A stretch of DNA of 64,000 nt, from assembly GCF_030652515.1 (NCBI RefSeq), contig NZ_JAUSAR010000010.1, positions 62,001 to 126,000 of the forward strand, written 5' to 3'. The notes below the pieces were generated by a model. That model was not told the DNA's origin. It made no database searches and saw nothing but the letters and a program-made list of their open reading frames with translations. The position numbers and the translations under genes are program-made. This document shows, piece by piece, positions 42,107-48,371 of the stretch. The DNA is from Aquabacterium sp. (GTDB taxonomy: Bacteria; Pseudomonadota; Gammaproteobacteria; Burkholderiales; Burkholderiaceae_C). Numbering within the stretch: the first letter of the stretch is position 1; each line of letters starts with the position of its first letter.

Positions 42107-44563
42107 TCAGGCTTGGTGGTCCGGAAAGATCGCCTTGCGGATGACGGCGTGGATGCCCAGGTTGCCATCCACGACTTGCGTGATGCCAAAGTCCACGGCC
42201 ACCGAGATCAGCGAGATGGCCTCGTCTTCGCTGAGGTGGTGCGCGGTCATCAGGTAATGGCGGGCCTTGCGGAAGGCATCGCGCATGGCGGCTTCCAGCG
42301 ATGACTTCTGGTAGACCTGGGTTTGCGCGTTGGGCCCGAGTTCGGCCAGGTGATTGGGAAAGCTCAGGCCCTGCAGCACCCACTCGTCGTCGGTCTCCAG
42401 GAAGGGGTAGTTCAGGTCGGCCAGGAAAGTGCCGGACATCTGCGTCTTCTTGTGCAGCACCAGTTGGAACACGCCAGTGAGCGAGCACTCGATGGCGGTG
42501 CCGCACAGCTCGGAGTCGCCTTGCGAGGCATGCGGGTCGCCCACGGAGAACAGCGCACCATCGACCGACACGGGCAGGTAGACCTTGCTGCCTTTGCCCG
42601 CACGCCAGTTGTCCAGGTTGCCGCCGAAGTAGCCGGGGGGAATCGAGTCCACCAGGCCCAACTCTTTGGGGGCGACGGCCAGCACGCCGAAGTGAGGGCG
42701 AATGGGCACGATGGCTTTGGACAGCACGCCGTATTGCTTGTCGATGCTCGCCTCGTCCACCGGCACACCGGGGTAGTCGATGGTGTCGTGGCGCACGCCG
42801 AAGGGATCGGTCTGCGGCGTCCAGCGGTAGTTGTAGACGGCCTTGGCGTGGGGTTGGGCGGCGGTGTCGTGGATCTCGTAGACGGTGACGACCTCGCGCT
42901 CCTTGGGCTCGGTCAGCAGGTCTTTGTATTGGAAGCCCCACCAGGTGGCGGCGTTGCTGCCAAAGAGCTTGCCATGGTGCTTGGGGTGGCAACTGGGGCG
43001 GGGCAGGATGTCGAGGATGCGGATCTCGAGCACGTCGCCCGGTTCGGCGCCTTGCACGTAGACCGGGCCGGTGCAGATGTGCACGCCGAAGCCTTCGCCC
43101 GCGCCGCGCCCGAAGATGGAAGCATCCATCGGGCCGGCGCCGCGACGGTCCACGCCTTTGCGGTCGGAGGTCCAGTGGAAGACGCTTTCGGCGCCGGGGT
43201 CGCCGTCGATCATGCGTTCGCGGTCGTCGCTGGCGTGCTGCGTGAGCGTCTCGATGGTCAAGATGTCGCCCGACTTGACCGAGATGGCGTGCTTGAGCGT
43301 GCGGCTGAAGTAGCCCCAGTGCACGGTCTTGTCGGAGGCGGGGATGTAGAAATGGTGGGGCGGCGCTTCGGTGGGCGAGGACGTGGTGGCCGATGCCGCG
43401 CGCTTGGGGGTCAGCGCCAACGCGAGGGCGTAGCGGGCGTGGTCGCTCAGCAGGTTCTCGAACTGGCTTCGGCGCGCCTCGCCGCTGTCCTCTCGTTGGT
43501 CTTGGGCCTGGGCGCTGAGCCGCGCATGTTCGCGCGCGCCCGCAGGCGGCACGCTGCCCAGCGTGGGTCGGCCGCGTTGCAGCACTTGTTGCGCGTCCAG
43601 GTTCTTCGGTGGTTCGGCGCGGTAGGCCTTGGGTGACAGCTTGAAGCGGGCCGTGAAGGCGCGGCTGAAATTGGCCGCGTCGTTGAAGCCCCAGCGGAAG
43701 CAGAGCTCGGCGATGGTGAAATGCGCCAGCGCGGGGTTGGCCAGGTCCAGCCGGCACCGCTCCAGCCGGCGGGCTTTGAGGTATTCGCTGAAGGTGGTCG
43801 ATCCCACCTTGAACAGCTTCTGGATGTAGCGGGTACTCAGGCCTTCGAGCCGGCCGATGTCGTCGATCACCAGGTCGGGGTCGCCCAAGCGCGCTTCCAT
43901 CGATCGGCACACGCGGCGCAGGTGGCCCAGTTGCACGGAGGTGGAGTCCTCAGCGCTGTCCTCGTCCATGTGCGACAGGCAGGCCACGAGCAACTCGGTC
44001 AGCGTGGCTTCAATGGGCGGCAACTCGTGGCGGCCCAGGTGGTCCAACTCGTCGGCGATGGATTGGATCAGGTTCAGGCAGACGGCGCCCACGCCAGTGC
44101 GCGCCGAAATCTTGTTGAGGTTCTGCTTGCTGGTGCGCACCAGGCGCAGCACGAAGCTGGCCGATTCGAGCTTGACGACCACGGCGCGGAAATCGGTGTT
44201 CAGCTCGATGCGCCAGGGGCGGGTGGGTTCCAGCACGATGATGTCGCCGCTGCTGATGGCGACGGTCTCGTCGCCTTCGATGACCAGGCCGCTGCCGGCC
44301 AGCAGGCTGAGCACCAGCACGGCGTTGCCATAGCGGTGCGCGTTGCCGGTGTGCGGCACCAACACCTGCGGTGACGAGGACAGCTTGATGAAGACCGAGT
44401 CGAGCGCCGAGCTGCACGATGACACGTGGCCATCCAGCGGGGGCAAGGCACGGCCGGGCGTGCCATTGCCCATCAGCACTTTCTCCAACACCTCGGTCCA
44501 GGCGGACTGGCGCAGCTCTTCAGGGAAGGCGTTGGTGGAAAAACGCCGCAGGTCGTTCAACAT
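42107..44563 (-). CDS. AraC-type regulator fused to acetamidase/formamidase domain
   Basis: 818 residues in one uninterrupted frame. Residues about 1-200 match the AraC-binding-like ligand domain (FSTNAFPEELRQSAWTEVL start), and 212-315 are the AraC helix-turn-helix pair (VIDDIGRLEGLSTRYIQKLF, IAELCFRWGFNDAANFSRAF). A charged linker (316-402) leads to a full acetamidase/formamidase (FmdA_AmdA) domain (403-818) with HFYIPAS, HICTGPV, WTPQTDPFGV and GDPHASQGDSELCGTAIE. The enzyme part is close to the exported amidase encoded just upstream, from which it likely arose. No signal peptide, so it is cytosolic. The amidase part may sense or hydrolyse an amide, with the AraC part controlling transcription (inference). 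Confidence 0.9.
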   Translation of the reverse strand: MLNDLRRFSTNAFPEELRQSAWTEVLEKVLMGNGTPGRALPPLDGHVSSCSSALDSVFIKLSSSPQVLVPHTGNAHRYGNAVLVLSLLAGSGLVIEGDETVAISSGDIIVLEPTRPWRIELNTDFRAVVVKLESASFVLRLVRTSKQNLNKISARTGVGAVCLNLIQSIADELDHLGRHELPPIEATLTELLVACLSHMDEDSAEDSTSVQLGHLRRVCRSMEARLGDPDLVIDDIGRLEGLSTRYIQKLFKVGSTTFSEYLKARRLERCRLDLANPALAHFTIAELCFRWGFNDAANFSRAFTARFKLSPKAYRAEPPKNLDAQQVLQRGRPTLGSVPPAGAREHARLSAQAQDQREDSGEARRSQFENLLSDHARYALALALTPKRAASATTSSPTEAPPHHFYIPASDKTVHWGYFSRTLKHAISVKSGDILTIETLTQHASDDRERMIDGDPGAESVFHWTSDRKGVDRRGAGPMDASIFGRGAGEGFGVHICTGPVYVQGAEPGDVLEIRILDILPRPSCHPKHHGKLFGSNAATWWGFQYKDLLTEPKEREVVTVYEIHDTAAQPHAKAVYNYRWTPQTDPFGVRHDTIDYPGVPVDEASIDKQYGVLSKAIVPIRPHFGVLAVAPKELGLVDSIPPGYFGGNLDNWRAGKGSKVYLPVSVDGALFSVGDPHASQGDSELCGTAIECSLTGVFQLVLHKKTQMSGTFLADLNYPFLETDDEWVLQGLSFPNHLAELGPNAQTQVYQKSSLEAAMRDAFRKARHYLMTAHHLSEDEAISLISVAVDFGITQVVDGNLGIHAVIRKAIFPDHQA

Positions 44564-44645
44564 CGGTTCAGGGCTTTCGCGTGGATCGGAAGATCCTCAC
44601 GGGCACGCGCAAGATCGGTGCCCGCAGTGGTCTGAAGGCCTGAGT

Positions 44646-46097
44646 TCAGACGCCGCGCGCCGGGAAGATGCTCTTCTTCACCACCGCGTGCACGCCCCAG
44701 TTGCCATCGACCACCTGGGTGATGCCGAAGTCCACCGCGATCGACATCAGCGAGATGGCCTCGTCCTCGCCCAGGCGCTGCGTGGTCATCAGGAAGTGGC
44801 GCATCTTGTGATACGCGTCACGCAAGGCCAGGTCCACCGATGATTTGCTGTAGATGGCGTTCTGCGCATCGGGGCCCAGTTCGGCCAGGTAGTTGGCGTA
44901 GCTGAAGCCGTGCAGCACCCAGTCGTCTTGCGTCTCGAGCAGGGGGTAGTTCAACTCGGCCAACGGGGTGCCGGGCAGGCTGGCCTTCTTGTGCAGGATG
45001 AGCTGGAAGGTGCCGGTGAGCGAGCATTCAATGGCCGTGCCGCACAACTCGGAGTCGCCTTGGGATGCATGCGGGTCGCCGACAGAGAACATGGCGCCGG
45101 GCACGGCCACCGGGTAATACACCGTGGCGCCCTTGCCGATGCGCCAGTTGTCGATGTTGCCGCCGGTGTAGTTGGGCGGGATGGAGGTGACCATGTCGGC
45201 CTCGGCCGGGGCCACGCCCATGGTGCCGAAGTGCGGCCGCACGGGGATGCGGATGTTCTGCAGGATCTTGTCGTTCTTGGTGATGGTGCTGTGGTTGACG
45301 GGCACGCCGGGGTAGTCGATGGTGGGGTGGACCACGCCGAAGGGGTCGGTCTGCGGCGTCCACTTGTAGTTGTAGACGGCGCGGGCCCAGTTGCGCTCGC
45401 CGGTGGCATCGACCTCGTAGATGGTGACAACTTCACGCTTCTTGGGTTCGGTCAGGGTGTCGCCGTAATGGAAGCCCCAGTTGGCGGCGGCGTTGCTGCC
45501 GAAGGCGCGGCCCTTGTACAGCGGGTTGGCACTGGGCCGTGGAGTGACGTCGATGATGCGCACTTCCAGGATGTCGCCCGCTTCAGCGCCCTTGATGTGG
45601 ACGGGGCCGGTGCAGATGTGCACGCCCTGGCCGCCACCGGCGCCCACCTTGGCGTCCATCGGGCCAGCACCCCGGCGGTTCACGCCTTTTTTCGTGCTGT
45701 CCCAGTGGAAGACGCTTTCGGCCCCGGCGTCACCGCGCACCATGCGTTCGGCATCGTCATTGGCGTGGTGGGTGAGGGTTTCGATGGTGACGAAATCACC
45801 CGATTCGACCGTGACCACCGGCTTGGCCGATTTGCTGAAGTACCCCCACAGCACGGTGTTGGCGCTGGCGGGGATGTAGTAGTGGCTGGTCATGCCCGAG
45901 CCGGGCTTGGCGCTGGCCGCGAAGGCGCTGGGCGTCATCGACACGCTGAGCGCGCTGGCCGAAACGGCGGTGCCGCTGGCCACCATGGCGTCGCGCAAGA
46001 AAGACCGGCGCGCGACCTTGAACTCTTCCTTGACGTCTTTTTCGTCTTCGGGCGAGACGCCGTGGGTGCACGTGGGGCTGCAGATGTGTTTGAGCAT
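44646..46097 (-). CDS. Tat-exported acetamidase/formamidase
   Basis: 483 residues from ATG 46097. A Cys-containing N-tip (HICSPTCTHG) is followed by a twin-arginine signal (ARRSFLRDAMVASG, arginines 30-31, cleavage near AFAASA), then a complete FmdA/AmdA domain (72-483). Shared motifs are HYYIPAS, HICTGPV, WTPQTDPFGV, GDPHASQGDSELCGT and QVVDGNWGVHAV. Enzymes of this family hydrolyse acetamide or formamide to the acid and ammonia. Export to the periplasm is unusual for the family. It is 82 bases upstream of the AraC fusion on the same strand, so the two are probably one transcription unit. Confidence 0.9.
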   Translation of the reverse strand: MLKHICSPTCTHGVSPEDEKDVKEEFKVARRSFLRDAMVASGTAVSASALSVSMTPSAFAASAKPGSGMTSHYYIPASANTVLWGYFSKSAKPVVTVESGDFVTIETLTHHANDDAERMVRGDAGAESVFHWDSTKKGVNRRGAGPMDAKVGAGGGQGVHICTGPVHIKGAEAGDILEVRIIDVTPRPSANPLYKGRAFGSNAAANWGFHYGDTLTEPKKREVVTIYEVDATGERNWARAVYNYKWTPQTDPFGVVHPTIDYPGVPVNHSTITKNDKILQNIRIPVRPHFGTMGVAPAEADMVTSIPPNYTGGNIDNWRIGKGATVYYPVAVPGAMFSVGDPHASQGDSELCGTAIECSLTGTFQLILHKKASLPGTPLAELNYPLLETQDDWVLHGFSYANYLAELGPDAQNAIYSKSSVDLALRDAYHKMRHFLMTTQRLGEDEAISLMSIAVDFGITQVVDGNWGVHAVVKKSIFPARGV

Positions 46098-46218
46098 GGG
46101 AGGCTTTCCTGTCGAAGGGATGAACGCGGGTGCTTGCGTTTCATTATTCGAGGCAGGGGGCTTTGGGCGCTTGTCGGACAACGCACAAAAGCTTGTCGCC
46201 GCGACCACGGGGTCTCGT

Positions 46219-47100
46219 TCAGGACTTGGTCGAAGGAGCCCGTGCTGGGTGGGGTGCTGCAGGGCGGCGCTTGATCATGTCCTGAGGGCCTTGTTCGATC
46301 ATTGTGCCGCTGCGCTGATGCGCCGCAGCCACGAGTGGCGCGATCAATGCGGCTTCGGGCAAGTTGTGCCAATAGCGACGGGGCATCTCGCGCTCCATCA
46401 TCTTCACCTTGAGCCGGGCGGGGTTGAAGATGTGCTCGTAATAGGTGAGCCACAGTTGCTCACCCGCATCCACGGGGGGCGCATCGTCGCGGTGGGCCCC
46501 GGGCTGGAACGTCAGGTGTGCGCCATCCCATTGAGCACAGCGTTCGGGCGTGAGGATGGCCCAGCGCATGTTGGTGAAGCGGCGCTGGAAGAAGGGCGCG
46601 GTGGCCTCGACGATGTGGTGGTCGGGCTCGAACCAGGCGATGTGCAGGGGGCCGCCGGCATGCTCATCGGCCACGGTGCGAAAGCGCACAAAGGCGGTCA
46701 TCTTGTGCATGTCGCGGCGCACGACGCGGGCGAGGTCTTCGAGCGCGCTGCGGTCCGGGTCCAGCGTGTCGTGGCGCAGACCGGGCTGGTGTTGCAGGCG
46801 CCACAGCAGGCGGTACATCAGGGCGAAGCGGCGCGGCTCGCGGTGCAGTATGGCGGTCTGGCACAGGGGCAGGAAGAAGGCGGGCACCTTGGGTGGACTG
46901 GCCTCATGAGCGGATGCTGACTCGGGGTGCGTCACGGCGGCGTTGGATGGCGCTTCAGCGAACAGGTCGCCCAGGCCCTGGTAGGCCAGCGTCCACGTCA
47001 CGTCCTCAGGTGGGACTTGCTCGGCCAGCAACTGGCGCGCGGCCTGCCGAAAGCCCGCCAGATCGATGGGCCCGGTCAGTTCAACGGTGCGGTTCAGCAT
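46219..47100 (-). CDS. TIGR03915-type DNA metabolism protein (DUF4130)
   Basis: 293 residues. RRDMHKMTAFVRFRTV, HIAWFEPDHHIVEATAPFFQRRFTNMRWAILTPERCAQWDG and YYEHIFNPARLKVKMMEREMPRRYWHNLPEA are characteristic of the DUF4130/TIGR03915 family, always found with the TIGR03916 radical-SAM protein. This gene overlaps that one by seven bases. The pair is thought to work in DNA repair or modification. A basic Arg/Pro-rich C-terminal tail follows the domain. A His-rich segment (EPDHH) may hold the active site (inference). Confidence 0.88.
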   Translation of the reverse strand: MLNRTVELTGPIDLAGFRQAARQLLAEQVPPEDVTWTLAYQGLGDLFAEAPSNAAVTHPESASAHEASPPKVPAFFLPLCQTAILHREPRRFALMYRLLWRLQHQPGLRHDTLDPDRSALEDLARVVRRDMHKMTAFVRFRTVADEHAGGPLHIAWFEPDHHIVEATAPFFQRRFTNMRWAILTPERCAQWDGAHLTFQPGAHRDDAPPVDAGEQLWLTYYEHIFNPARLKVKMMEREMPRRYWHNLPEAALIAPLVAAAHQRSGTMIEQGPQDMIKRRPAAPHPARAPSTKS

Positions 47101-48371
47101 GGTGCGGTGTCGAACAGATCGGTCTGCACGGCGGGCTGGGGCCGCAAACGCGTGGCCAGGTCAGGCGCGTCCAGGCTGCGACCGGGGTGGTGGTCGGCCA
47201 CGATGACGAAGGGCAGCACTTTCTTGAGCGAGACGCGCAGCACCGACAGGTCGCTGCAACGCACCCGCCGCACGCGCCGGGTCTGCAGCAGGCGCTCGAT
47301 GGTCTTGACGCCCAGGCCGGGCACGCGCAGCAGCGATTCACGCGGGGCGCGGTTCAGGTCGACCGGGAAGCGTTCGCGGTGGGCCAGGGCCCAGGCCAGT
47401 TTGGGGTCGAGGTCGAGCGACAGCATGCCATCCCCTGGTGGCACGATCTCGTCATGCGCGAAGCCGTAGAAACGCATCAGCCAGTCAGCCTGGTAAAGGC
47501 GGTGCTCGCGCATCAGGGGCGGCGCTTGAGAGGGCAGGGCGCGCGGCGCATCGGGGATGGGGCTGAAGGCCGAGTAGTAGACGCGGCGCAACTGATACGA
47601 GCCGTAAAGCGTGGCGCTGGTGCCCAGGATGGCGCTGTCGCTGGTAGCGTCGGCCCCGACGATCATCTGGGTGCTCTGGCCGCCAGGGGCGAAGCGCGGC
47701 GGCAAGGCCACCAGGGGTGCCGAGCGTGGCCGCGAGATGATGGGCGCAGGCGCTGAAGCTTCCTTGGCCTCGTCGATGTGCACACGCAGTCGCGCCATCG
47801 AACGCCGGATGGCGGCGCCGTCTTTTTCGGGGGCCAGGCTTTGCAGGCTCTCGGCCGTGGGCAACTCGATGTTGATGCTCAGGCGATCGGCGAAGCGGCC
47901 GGCCTGGGCCAGCAGTTCCGGGCTGGCATCGGGGATGGTCTTGAGGTGGATGTAGCCGCGGAAATCGTGCTCTTCGCGCAGCACGCGCGCCACCTCGACC
48001 ACCTGCTCCATCGTGTAGTCAGGATTGCGGATGATGCCGGAACTGAGGAACAGCCCTTCGATGCAATTGCGGCGGTAGAAGTCCAGCGTCAGCTTCACCA
48101 CTTCATCCACTGTGAAACGCGCGCGCGGCACGTTGCTGGTGACGCGGTTGACGCAATACAGGCAGTCGTACTGGCAATAGTTGGTCAGCAGGATCTTGAG
48201 CAGCGAGATGCAGCGGCCATCCGGGGCGTAGCTGTGGCAGATGCCAGCGCCTTCGGTGGAGCCGATGCCCCGGCCTTTGACCGAATCACGCTGGCTGGTG
48301 CCGCTGGACGAACACGAGGCGTCGTACTTGGCGGCATCGGCCAGGATGGCGAGTTTCTGCTGGATGTTCAC
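47094..48371 (-). CDS. TIGR03916-type radical-SAM DNA repair/modification protein
   Basis: 425 residues. Radical-SAM 4Fe-4S motif CX3CX2C (Cys66, 70, 73 in NYCQYDCLYC); an N-terminal ADAAKYDASCSSSG; LSSGIIRNPDYTM; and a C-terminal helix-hairpin-helix (LRVPGLGVKTIERLLQTRR) that would bind DNA. It starts with GTG at 48371; the family consensus begins at about the same residue. The GTG lies at the edge of a perfect LexA box, so the promoter and start overlap. Together with the DUF4130 protein it forms a damage-inducible unit (inference from the site). Confidence 0.9.
   Translation of the reverse strand: MNIQQKLAILADAAKYDASCSSSGTSQRDSVKGRGIGSTEGAGICHSYAPDGRCISLLKILLTNYCQYDCLYCVNRVTSNVPRARFTVDEVVKLTLDFYRRNCIEGLFLSSGIIRNPDYTMEQVVEVARVLREEHDFRGYIHLKTIPDASPELLAQAGRFADRLSINIELPTAESLQSLAPEKDGAAIRRSMARLRVHIDEAKEASAPAPIISRPRSAPLVALPPRFAPGGQSTQMIVGADATSDSAILGTSATLYGSYQLRRVYYSAFSPIPDAPRALPSQAPPLMREHRLYQADWLMRFYGFAHDEIVPPGDGMLSLDLDPKLAWALAHRERFPVDLNRAPRESLLRVPGLGVKTIERLLQTRRVRRVRCSDLSVLRVSLKKVLPFVIVADHHPGRSLDAPDLATRLRPQPAVQTDLFDTAPC

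Follow-up and report, generated by a model that had tools for sequence, protein, structure and literature searches.

How an AraC-type transcriptional regulator and an acetamidase/formamidase (FmdA/AmdA) may cooperate within a single polypeptide is the question raised by a gene in the window, the whole 64,000-nucleotide stretch of Aquabacterium sp. DNA that was analyzed here.

Composition and recurrence of the AraC-FmdA fusion

An open-reading-frame scan of the window gave an uninterrupted frame of 818 amino acids with an ATG start. Three Pfam domains above their cut-offs were assigned within it, which upholds the preliminary description of one 818-codon frame joining AraC and FmdA/AmdA parts. 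The layout is given below; residue numbers here and throughout refer to the 818-residue fusion protein.

42107 to 44563, minus strand: AraC-FmdA fusion gene, 818 codons and a stop codon (open frame, Pfam and recurrence)
43976 to 44341, minus strand: cupin-type AraC sensor (PF14525), residues 75-196 (Pfam and structure match)
43604 to 43939, minus strand: AraC helix-turn-helix, about residues 209-320 (Pfam and AraC-family helix-turn-helix structures)
43367 to 43603, minus strand: linker predicted to be disordered, residues 321-399 (pLDDT, invariant columns and dN/dS)
42113 to 43366, minus strand: FmdA/AmdA domain, residues 400-817 (Pfam and structure match to 3b9t)

The Pfam scores were 53.6 bits for PF14525 (AraC_binding_2, residues 75-196; curated cut-off of 27), 58.6 bits for PF12833 (HTH_18, residues 240-316; cut-off of 33.6), and 98.9 bits for PF03069 (FmdA_AmdA, residues 494-800; cut-off of 27). 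Structure comparison, for which matches were taken from 50 entries listed by VIA-align, aligned residues 4-202 to the AraC-type activator CuxR (Z 17.4) and residues 400-817 to 3b9t, a Tat-signal FmdA protein from Methylobacillus flagellatus (Z 48.1, rmsd 2.2, 405 residues). The fold of the FmdA domain was also matched by four acetamidase entries (Z 27.5-28.9). An AlphaFold2 model of the whole chain, produced from 59 fusion sequences (mean pLDDT 76.3, pTM 0.66), agreed with the architecture put forward previously, as the N- and C-terminal parts were folded and the stretch between them, residues 318-398, was of low confidence (pLDDT below 50).

As judged from these domains, the protein comprises an entire AraC regulator, with its cupin, and a complete FmdA domain placed after the helix-turn-helix. 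Because the ordinary AraC cupin domain is retained, the FmdA domain is an addition and not a replacement; the earlier view of the sensor as an added enzyme is to be read in this sense, with the cupin still in place. Regulators of the AraC/XylS family usually have a C-terminal helix-turn-helix and comprise ∼300 residues overall. The internal helix-turn-helix and 818-residue chain of the fusion depart from this layout, which is usual but not obligatory. Scores against the NCBIfam equivalogs were below cut-off both for FeaR (NF007243; 106.8, cut-off of 199) and for the formamidase FmdA (NF045496; 58.6, cut-off of 500). Pfam found AraC and FmdA domains only, and not the GntR helix-turn-helix with a class I aminotransferase-like part that characterizes MocR/GabR.

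Within the linker, an RGxP motif (R330-G331-x-P333) is invariant among 59 fusions. The linker of near relatives (43367-43603, minus strand, in the window) also has a conserved RRxxF...HARYA...ALxPKR stretch, which BLASTP aligns with the Tat signal of the neighboring stand-alone FmdA and which is perhaps a remnant of an export signal.

The full-length fusion was present in 5 of the 36 other genomes of the genus, with identities of 57-76%. A contig scan yielded 190 confirmed relatives, of which the best 80 were kept, and all 80 contained both parts in one open frame; because only the best 80 of 190 were kept, this value is not a frequency. Recurrence of the intact fusion in many genera, as had been anticipated, is thereby confirmed. 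The fusions among these best 80 of 190 span alpha-, beta- and gammaproteobacteria, with record titles that include Aquabacterium, Variovorax, Delftia, Methylophaga, Pseudomonas, Halopseudomonas, Nitrincola, Oxalicibacterium, Paraburkholderia, Caballeronia, Cupriavidus, Parvibaculum and Aliiglaciecola. On Rhizobium and Sinorhizobium plasmids, matches to the fusion start only near residue 166-172, and the N-terminal part is therefore more diverged there. Fusions also occur in six genomes of another family (f88), which are probably rhizobia. With scoring confined to the two best places in each genome, the fusion was rare in the order sample (2 of 399 genomes) and was present in at least 8 of the 398 genomes of the phylum sample. 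An 809-codon frame in one further genome (G133) was discarded, being a stand-alone FmdA whose extension is spurious. Two copies of the fusion, on contigs C6 and C33, are found in the genome of locus L086 (G439), and one of them is directly downstream of a stand-alone FmdA.

Plasmid records in PLSDB label the fusion “acetamidase/formamidase family protein” or “AraC family transcriptional regulator,” and it is therefore present in databases, though as far as found undescribed. Several of these records have the former label only, so that the regulator is hidden. No description of an AraC-FmdA fusion was found in the literature searched (open-licence PubMed Central), in line with the earlier statement that no well-described case was known.

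Two trees were calculated, in which 66 and 57 rows were kept. In the careful tree of 57 rows, the fused FmdA domains formed one clade with support of 97/97, and on this evidence the sampled fused domains share a single origin. The grouping of the fused domains in one clade, separate from the adjacent stand-alone enzymes, speaks against a recent local duplication of the neighboring enzyme into an AraC gene, which was therefore rejected. Values of dN/dS were below 1 in all four segments when compared with four relatives (0.11-0.41 for the linker), and a frameshift or assembly join is ruled out by recurrence together with purifying selection in the linker. The fusion-bearing relatives that were seen have the fusion plus a stand-alone FmdA, and not the two separate genes that the preliminary description held would speak against a genuine fusion.

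Companion enzyme and predicted operator

Three further features precede the fusion gene in the window.

44646 to 46097, minus strand: stand-alone FmdA with a Tat-type signal, predicted target gene (open frame and Pfam)
46170 to 46196, minus strand: predicted operator, ACAAG-N5-GTGCG-N7-ACAAG, upstream of the stand-alone FmdA
46143 to 46148, minus strand: −10-like element, AATAAT, 21 bases past the last operator box

The likely start of the stand-alone FmdA is at 46097, the longest frame starting at 46208, and its product is 58% identical to the C-terminal half of the fusion over 506 aligned columns. Of 76 fusion loci, 69 had a stand-alone FmdA in the fetched sequence (up to ∼6 kb), arranged in tandem (47 loci), divergently (11 loci, in 4 of which the companion sits about 3 kb off), convergently (9 loci) or as overlapping frames (2 loci). 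All nine genomes that were checked had a stand-alone FmdA somewhere, although six had none near the fusion locus; among the nine matches, one has an internal stop and some are of a distant type. Three types of companion were distinguished, namely Tat-exported (as in the window), cytosolic (∼412 residues) and distant (∼38% identity). That one clade of regulators is combined with exchangeable enzymes argues for a functional link.

Inspection of the Tat-type FmdA polypeptides (46097 to ∼45990, minus strand, in the window; also L026, L030-L049, L090 and L122) reveals a conserved HICxPxCxHG-like Cys/His motif at their start, before the twin arginine. Related proteins of loci L044-L046 and L122 have no clear twin-arginine signal and still keep a version of this motif, which suggests a possible metal-related role. 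An inverted repeat, CGGGCAC / GTGCCCG (44600-44624 of the window), was seen by eye in the 82 bases that separate the stand-alone amidase from the fusion and was not listed by the terminator scan. Directly upstream of the amidase operator are overlapping DUF4130 and radical SAM genes (46219-48371, minus strand), for which no link to the fusion was seen.

The predicted operator is a direct repeat with a 22-bp period that was spotted by eye in the window and 20 other loci. The first operator matrix was built from 16 of these 21 sites, five having been left out as near-copies; with this matrix the window site scored 41.9 and the runner-up in the window scored 18.0. The latter (31925, plus strand) fell to 7.9 with a refined matrix, is placed at the start of an unrelated frame, and was attributed to chance. 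In the window's own genome, a longer form of the pattern matched perfectly once, ahead of the stand-alone amidase. With the refined matrix, which was trained on the same fusion loci that it scores, a site above the threshold of 15 was found in 68 of 80 fusion loci, and shuffled loci gave 3 such sites in 1.08 Mb. Twelve loci had no site above 15 (L027, L035, L054, L061, L094-L097, L101-L103 and L105); L027 and L035 are cut contigs, and the remainder may have a diverged operator. An array of TTTTTTGACAAG repeats in a viral contig (L146, 2200-2330) matches the pattern exactly but was judged unrelated given the contig's own short repeats and phage-like frames; neither AraC nor FmdA matches were found there.

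A total of 90 sites was obtained, of which 62 are 2-147 bases ahead of the first possible start of a labeled gene, 15 are 327-1161 bases from the next labeled gene, and 13 have no labeled gene downstream. The labeled genes after sites encode FmdA (several types), SBP_bac_3, ABC, and Rieske and TauD-type oxygenase proteins. Several operator-like sites (15-26) precede Rieske/TauD-type oxygenase genes in L057, L059, L063, L074 and L098 (Parvibaculum and Beijerinckiaceae), which suggests that the predicted regulon may be a wider catabolic one. A second operator is present downstream of the fusion, before a porin gene, in L044 (9181), L045 (8777) and L046 (9266; all on the plus strand), and in L044 and L045 the gene that follows was identified by Pfam as a Gram-negative porin.

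A TAnnnT element, which played no part in the matrix, was present 19 bases past the site in 52 of 85 distinct sites, compared with 7 for the next best offset. In the window and at most Tat-type loci this element is replaced, one base beyond this offset, by AATAAT, CATAAT or a weaker match, and the AATAAT element of the window recurs in L026 and L028-L030. This spacing would set the second operator box over the −35 position, as in class II activators.

The f88 loci (L140-L145) were outside the training of the matrix, and all six had a site, with scores of 21.0-28.1. Five of these sites precede frames of 305-306 residues that resemble one another (Pfam assigns one of them to SBP_bac_3), and the sixth sits 44 bases before the fusion itself. 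In the wider locus of Pseudomonas typographi, a site scoring 30.8 was found before a stand-alone FmdA, outside the stretch used for the matrix. The order at this locus is FmdA, ABC-transporter-like frames, a second site (26.8), nitrile hydratase β and α (assigned by Pfam and by a motif read by eye, respectively) and the fusion; none of the other fetched loci showed nitrile hydratase.

Controls were drawn from 26 genomes that have a stand-alone FmdA and no detected fusion. Of these, 23 were fetched (G582, G589 and G630 were left out), and L125 and L134, which duplicate other controls, were not counted. No site above 12.1 was observed at the 23 stand-alone FmdA loci, against the threshold of 15, and the best control site (L109, 12.1) is beyond the gene and not upstream of it. 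A strict form of the pattern was present in five of six fusion carriers versus 1 of 55 other genomes in the sample of relatives, and in both fusion carriers versus 3 of 397 others in the order sample, counts in which related genomes are not independent. Reversed-pattern controls gave 1 and 3 genomes, which is of chance size. The one carrier without the strict pattern (G011) has a weaker best site of 20.3. An activator role for the fusion at the predicted operator is thus strongly supported by comparative genomics.

The FmdA domain and the proposed function

In an alignment of 58 of 76 fusion references and the window (59 rows), mean pairwise identity was 0.72 for the FmdA domain, 0.57 for the helix-turn-helix, 0.33 for the cupin and 0.22 for the linker; the FmdA domain is therefore the most conserved segment of the fusions. 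Identity was nevertheless lower in the fused domains than in paired stand-alone enzymes (97 of 136, 328 of 363 and 138 of 156 pairs). The domain alignment was prepared without L006, L027-L029 and L035, which are repeats of other rows. In this alignment the family-wide polar residues N649, D651, H678, Q681, E685 and E692 were present in all fusion rows and D676 in 81 of 82, whereas G647, P664 and V665 vary, being kept in 77, 67 and 76 of the 82 rows, respectively. Because the polar residues are kept, the idea of an enzyme made dead by loss of family-wide residues is unsupported. A single position separates the fusions from the enzymes.

43238 to 43240, minus strand: codon of Gln442, a position occupied by His in stand-alone enzymes (alignment)

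All 74 stand-alone rows, and 3b9t at the equivalent position, have His at residue 442, and 77 of the 82 fusion rows have Gln. The preliminary description had credited the fused domain with the same key motifs as the stand-alone enzyme, which is correct for the family-wide polar residues but not for residue 442, where the fusion has Gln versus the His of its neighbor. Five fusions (L058, L074 and L098-L100) keep His442, so the change is not obligatory; these loci offer natural comparison pairs for activity with His or Gln at this position. The conservation and the state of residue 442 fit an enzyme apparently recruited for ligand binding, its catalysis being either retained or changed, and it may be speculated that His442-to-Gln moved the site from turnover toward binding.

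Comparative genomics ties the fusion to the control of amide catabolism, which it very probably regulates through the predicted operator, and its FmdA domain is probably the sensor. The earlier reading of the fusion as a possible trigger enzyme or one-component amide sensor is supported in part. The explanation that we moderately favor for the system as a whole is a one-component, operator-bound activator of amide catabolism in which the FmdA domain senses an amide or its product. The AraC part would bind the direct-repeat operator (ACAAG...GTGCG, then ACAAG 22 bp on), and the promoter-proximal box would overlie the −35 position, on which account class II activation of the stand-alone FmdA amidase is proposed. 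Depending on the species, other targets would be ABC transporter, porin, nitrile hydratase or oxygenase genes, and co-induction of the fusion itself is conceivable where it is downstream in tandem. The FmdA domain would bind the amide hydrolyzed by the target enzyme, or the product, and its occupancy would set activation; a relative of the pathway's own enzyme would thus have been recruited, as in MocR/GabR. The retained cupin domain is intact and may also be a ligand site. A less probable version, to which we assign a small chance, is that the FmdA domain still works as an amidase, though slowly, and signals by its catalytic state: with substrate loaded it would switch the AraC part on, and hydrolysis would reset it. 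If so, the promoter would read amide flux, His442-to-Gln would set the timing, and a catalytic timer would be built into an AraC regulator.

Readings in which the FmdA domain does not sense were weighed against the same data. The cupin could be the sensor and FmdA an active enzyme in the same chain that removes inducer nearby (negative feedback) or simply adds activity. The presence of PF14525 above its cut-off and the invariance in fusions of the six polar residues N649 to E692 are consistent with such an arrangement, but the cupin is the less conserved folded part (0.33 versus 0.72 for FmdA), the genomes checked also have a separate enzyme, and His442 is replaced in 77 of 82 fusions; this reading is accordingly considered unlikely. 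More doubtful still is a role for the FmdA domain as a catalytically inactive scaffold that only sets the oligomeric state, without sensing or hydrolysis. The one diagnostic substitution, His442 to Gln, and the somewhat faster evolution of the fused domains relative to the paired enzymes point in this direction, yet the degree of conservation, family-wide polar residues included, exceeds what a scaffold would need.

Two other readings detach the operator or the fusion from the proposed regulon. AraC-type regulators are common in these genomes, and the operator might belong to another regulator, with the fusion merely a neighbor of the regulated genes. This is very improbable, as the operator occurs genome-wide in step with the fusion, no site above the threshold was found at the 23 control loci with a stand-alone FmdA and no detected fusion in the genome, and direct repeats are in keeping with an AraC-type protein. 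An assembly or sequencing artefact joining two genes might be considered because the window's genome has an estimated contamination of 9%, but it deserves almost no credence given the fusion in all 80 kept loci (best 80 of 190), named isolates included, the purifying selection on the linker and the single clade of fused domains.

The new element, as predicted from sequence, is the direct-repeat operator with its regulon, and the whole suggests an amide- or nitrile-responsive switch. As the operator and the regulon are predicted and one residue stands out as a candidate, the change from enzyme to sensor could be tested by binding and reporter assays.

Comparison with known systems

The fusion shares a cupin sensor and an AraC helix-turn-helix with FeaR-like activators of the AraC/XylS family (PF14525 and PF12833), and a direct-repeat operator at −35 is likewise predicted for it, but it differs in having a complete FmdA domain of ∼418 residues after the helix-turn-helix. 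For this family, 106 different companion domains are reported in the excerpted text of PMC5882156. The resemblance to the FmdA/AmdA family (3b9t) is in fold and family-wide polar residues, and the differences are the joined regulator and Gln at residue 442.

The amide-induced fmdCABDEF cluster of Methylophilus methylotrophus, as outlined in the available portion of PMC10781810, comprises a formamidase, a porin, an ABC transporter and a putative positive regulator, a set that resembles the fusion loci; the porin operator of L044-L046 recalls the porin of this cluster. By contrast, the putative positive regulator is encoded by a separate gene, and an AraC fusion is not mentioned in that portion of the source. 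Unfused AraC-type regulators are also described near related enzymes, namely upstream of an amidase-signature gene in Variovorax boronicumulans (extract of PMC11573777) and, in the case of the AraC-family NitR, near nitrilase genes (extract of PMC8955678).

Trigger enzymes such as PutA likewise place DNA-binding and enzyme-family parts in one chain for control of a pathway, according to an extract of PMC9132996. The fusion differs in that a separate stand-alone enzyme exists and its own catalysis is only putative.

By analogy, the closest design to the fusion is that of MocR/GabR. As summarized in part of PMC5320631, these regulators combine a GntR helix-turn-helix with an aminotransferase-like sensor; the sensor part is akin to an enzyme from the pathway under control, and the regulator gene is often oriented divergently from its target. 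The counterpart here is the predicted operator before a stand-alone FmdA that is 58% identical to the fused domain. The helix-turn-helix and enzyme families are different from those given in that text, and the fusion keeps a second (cupin) sensor. If the proposed function is correct, the AraC-FmdA fusion would be an independent example of the MocR/GabR design, a regulator that carries a relative of the enzyme it controls.
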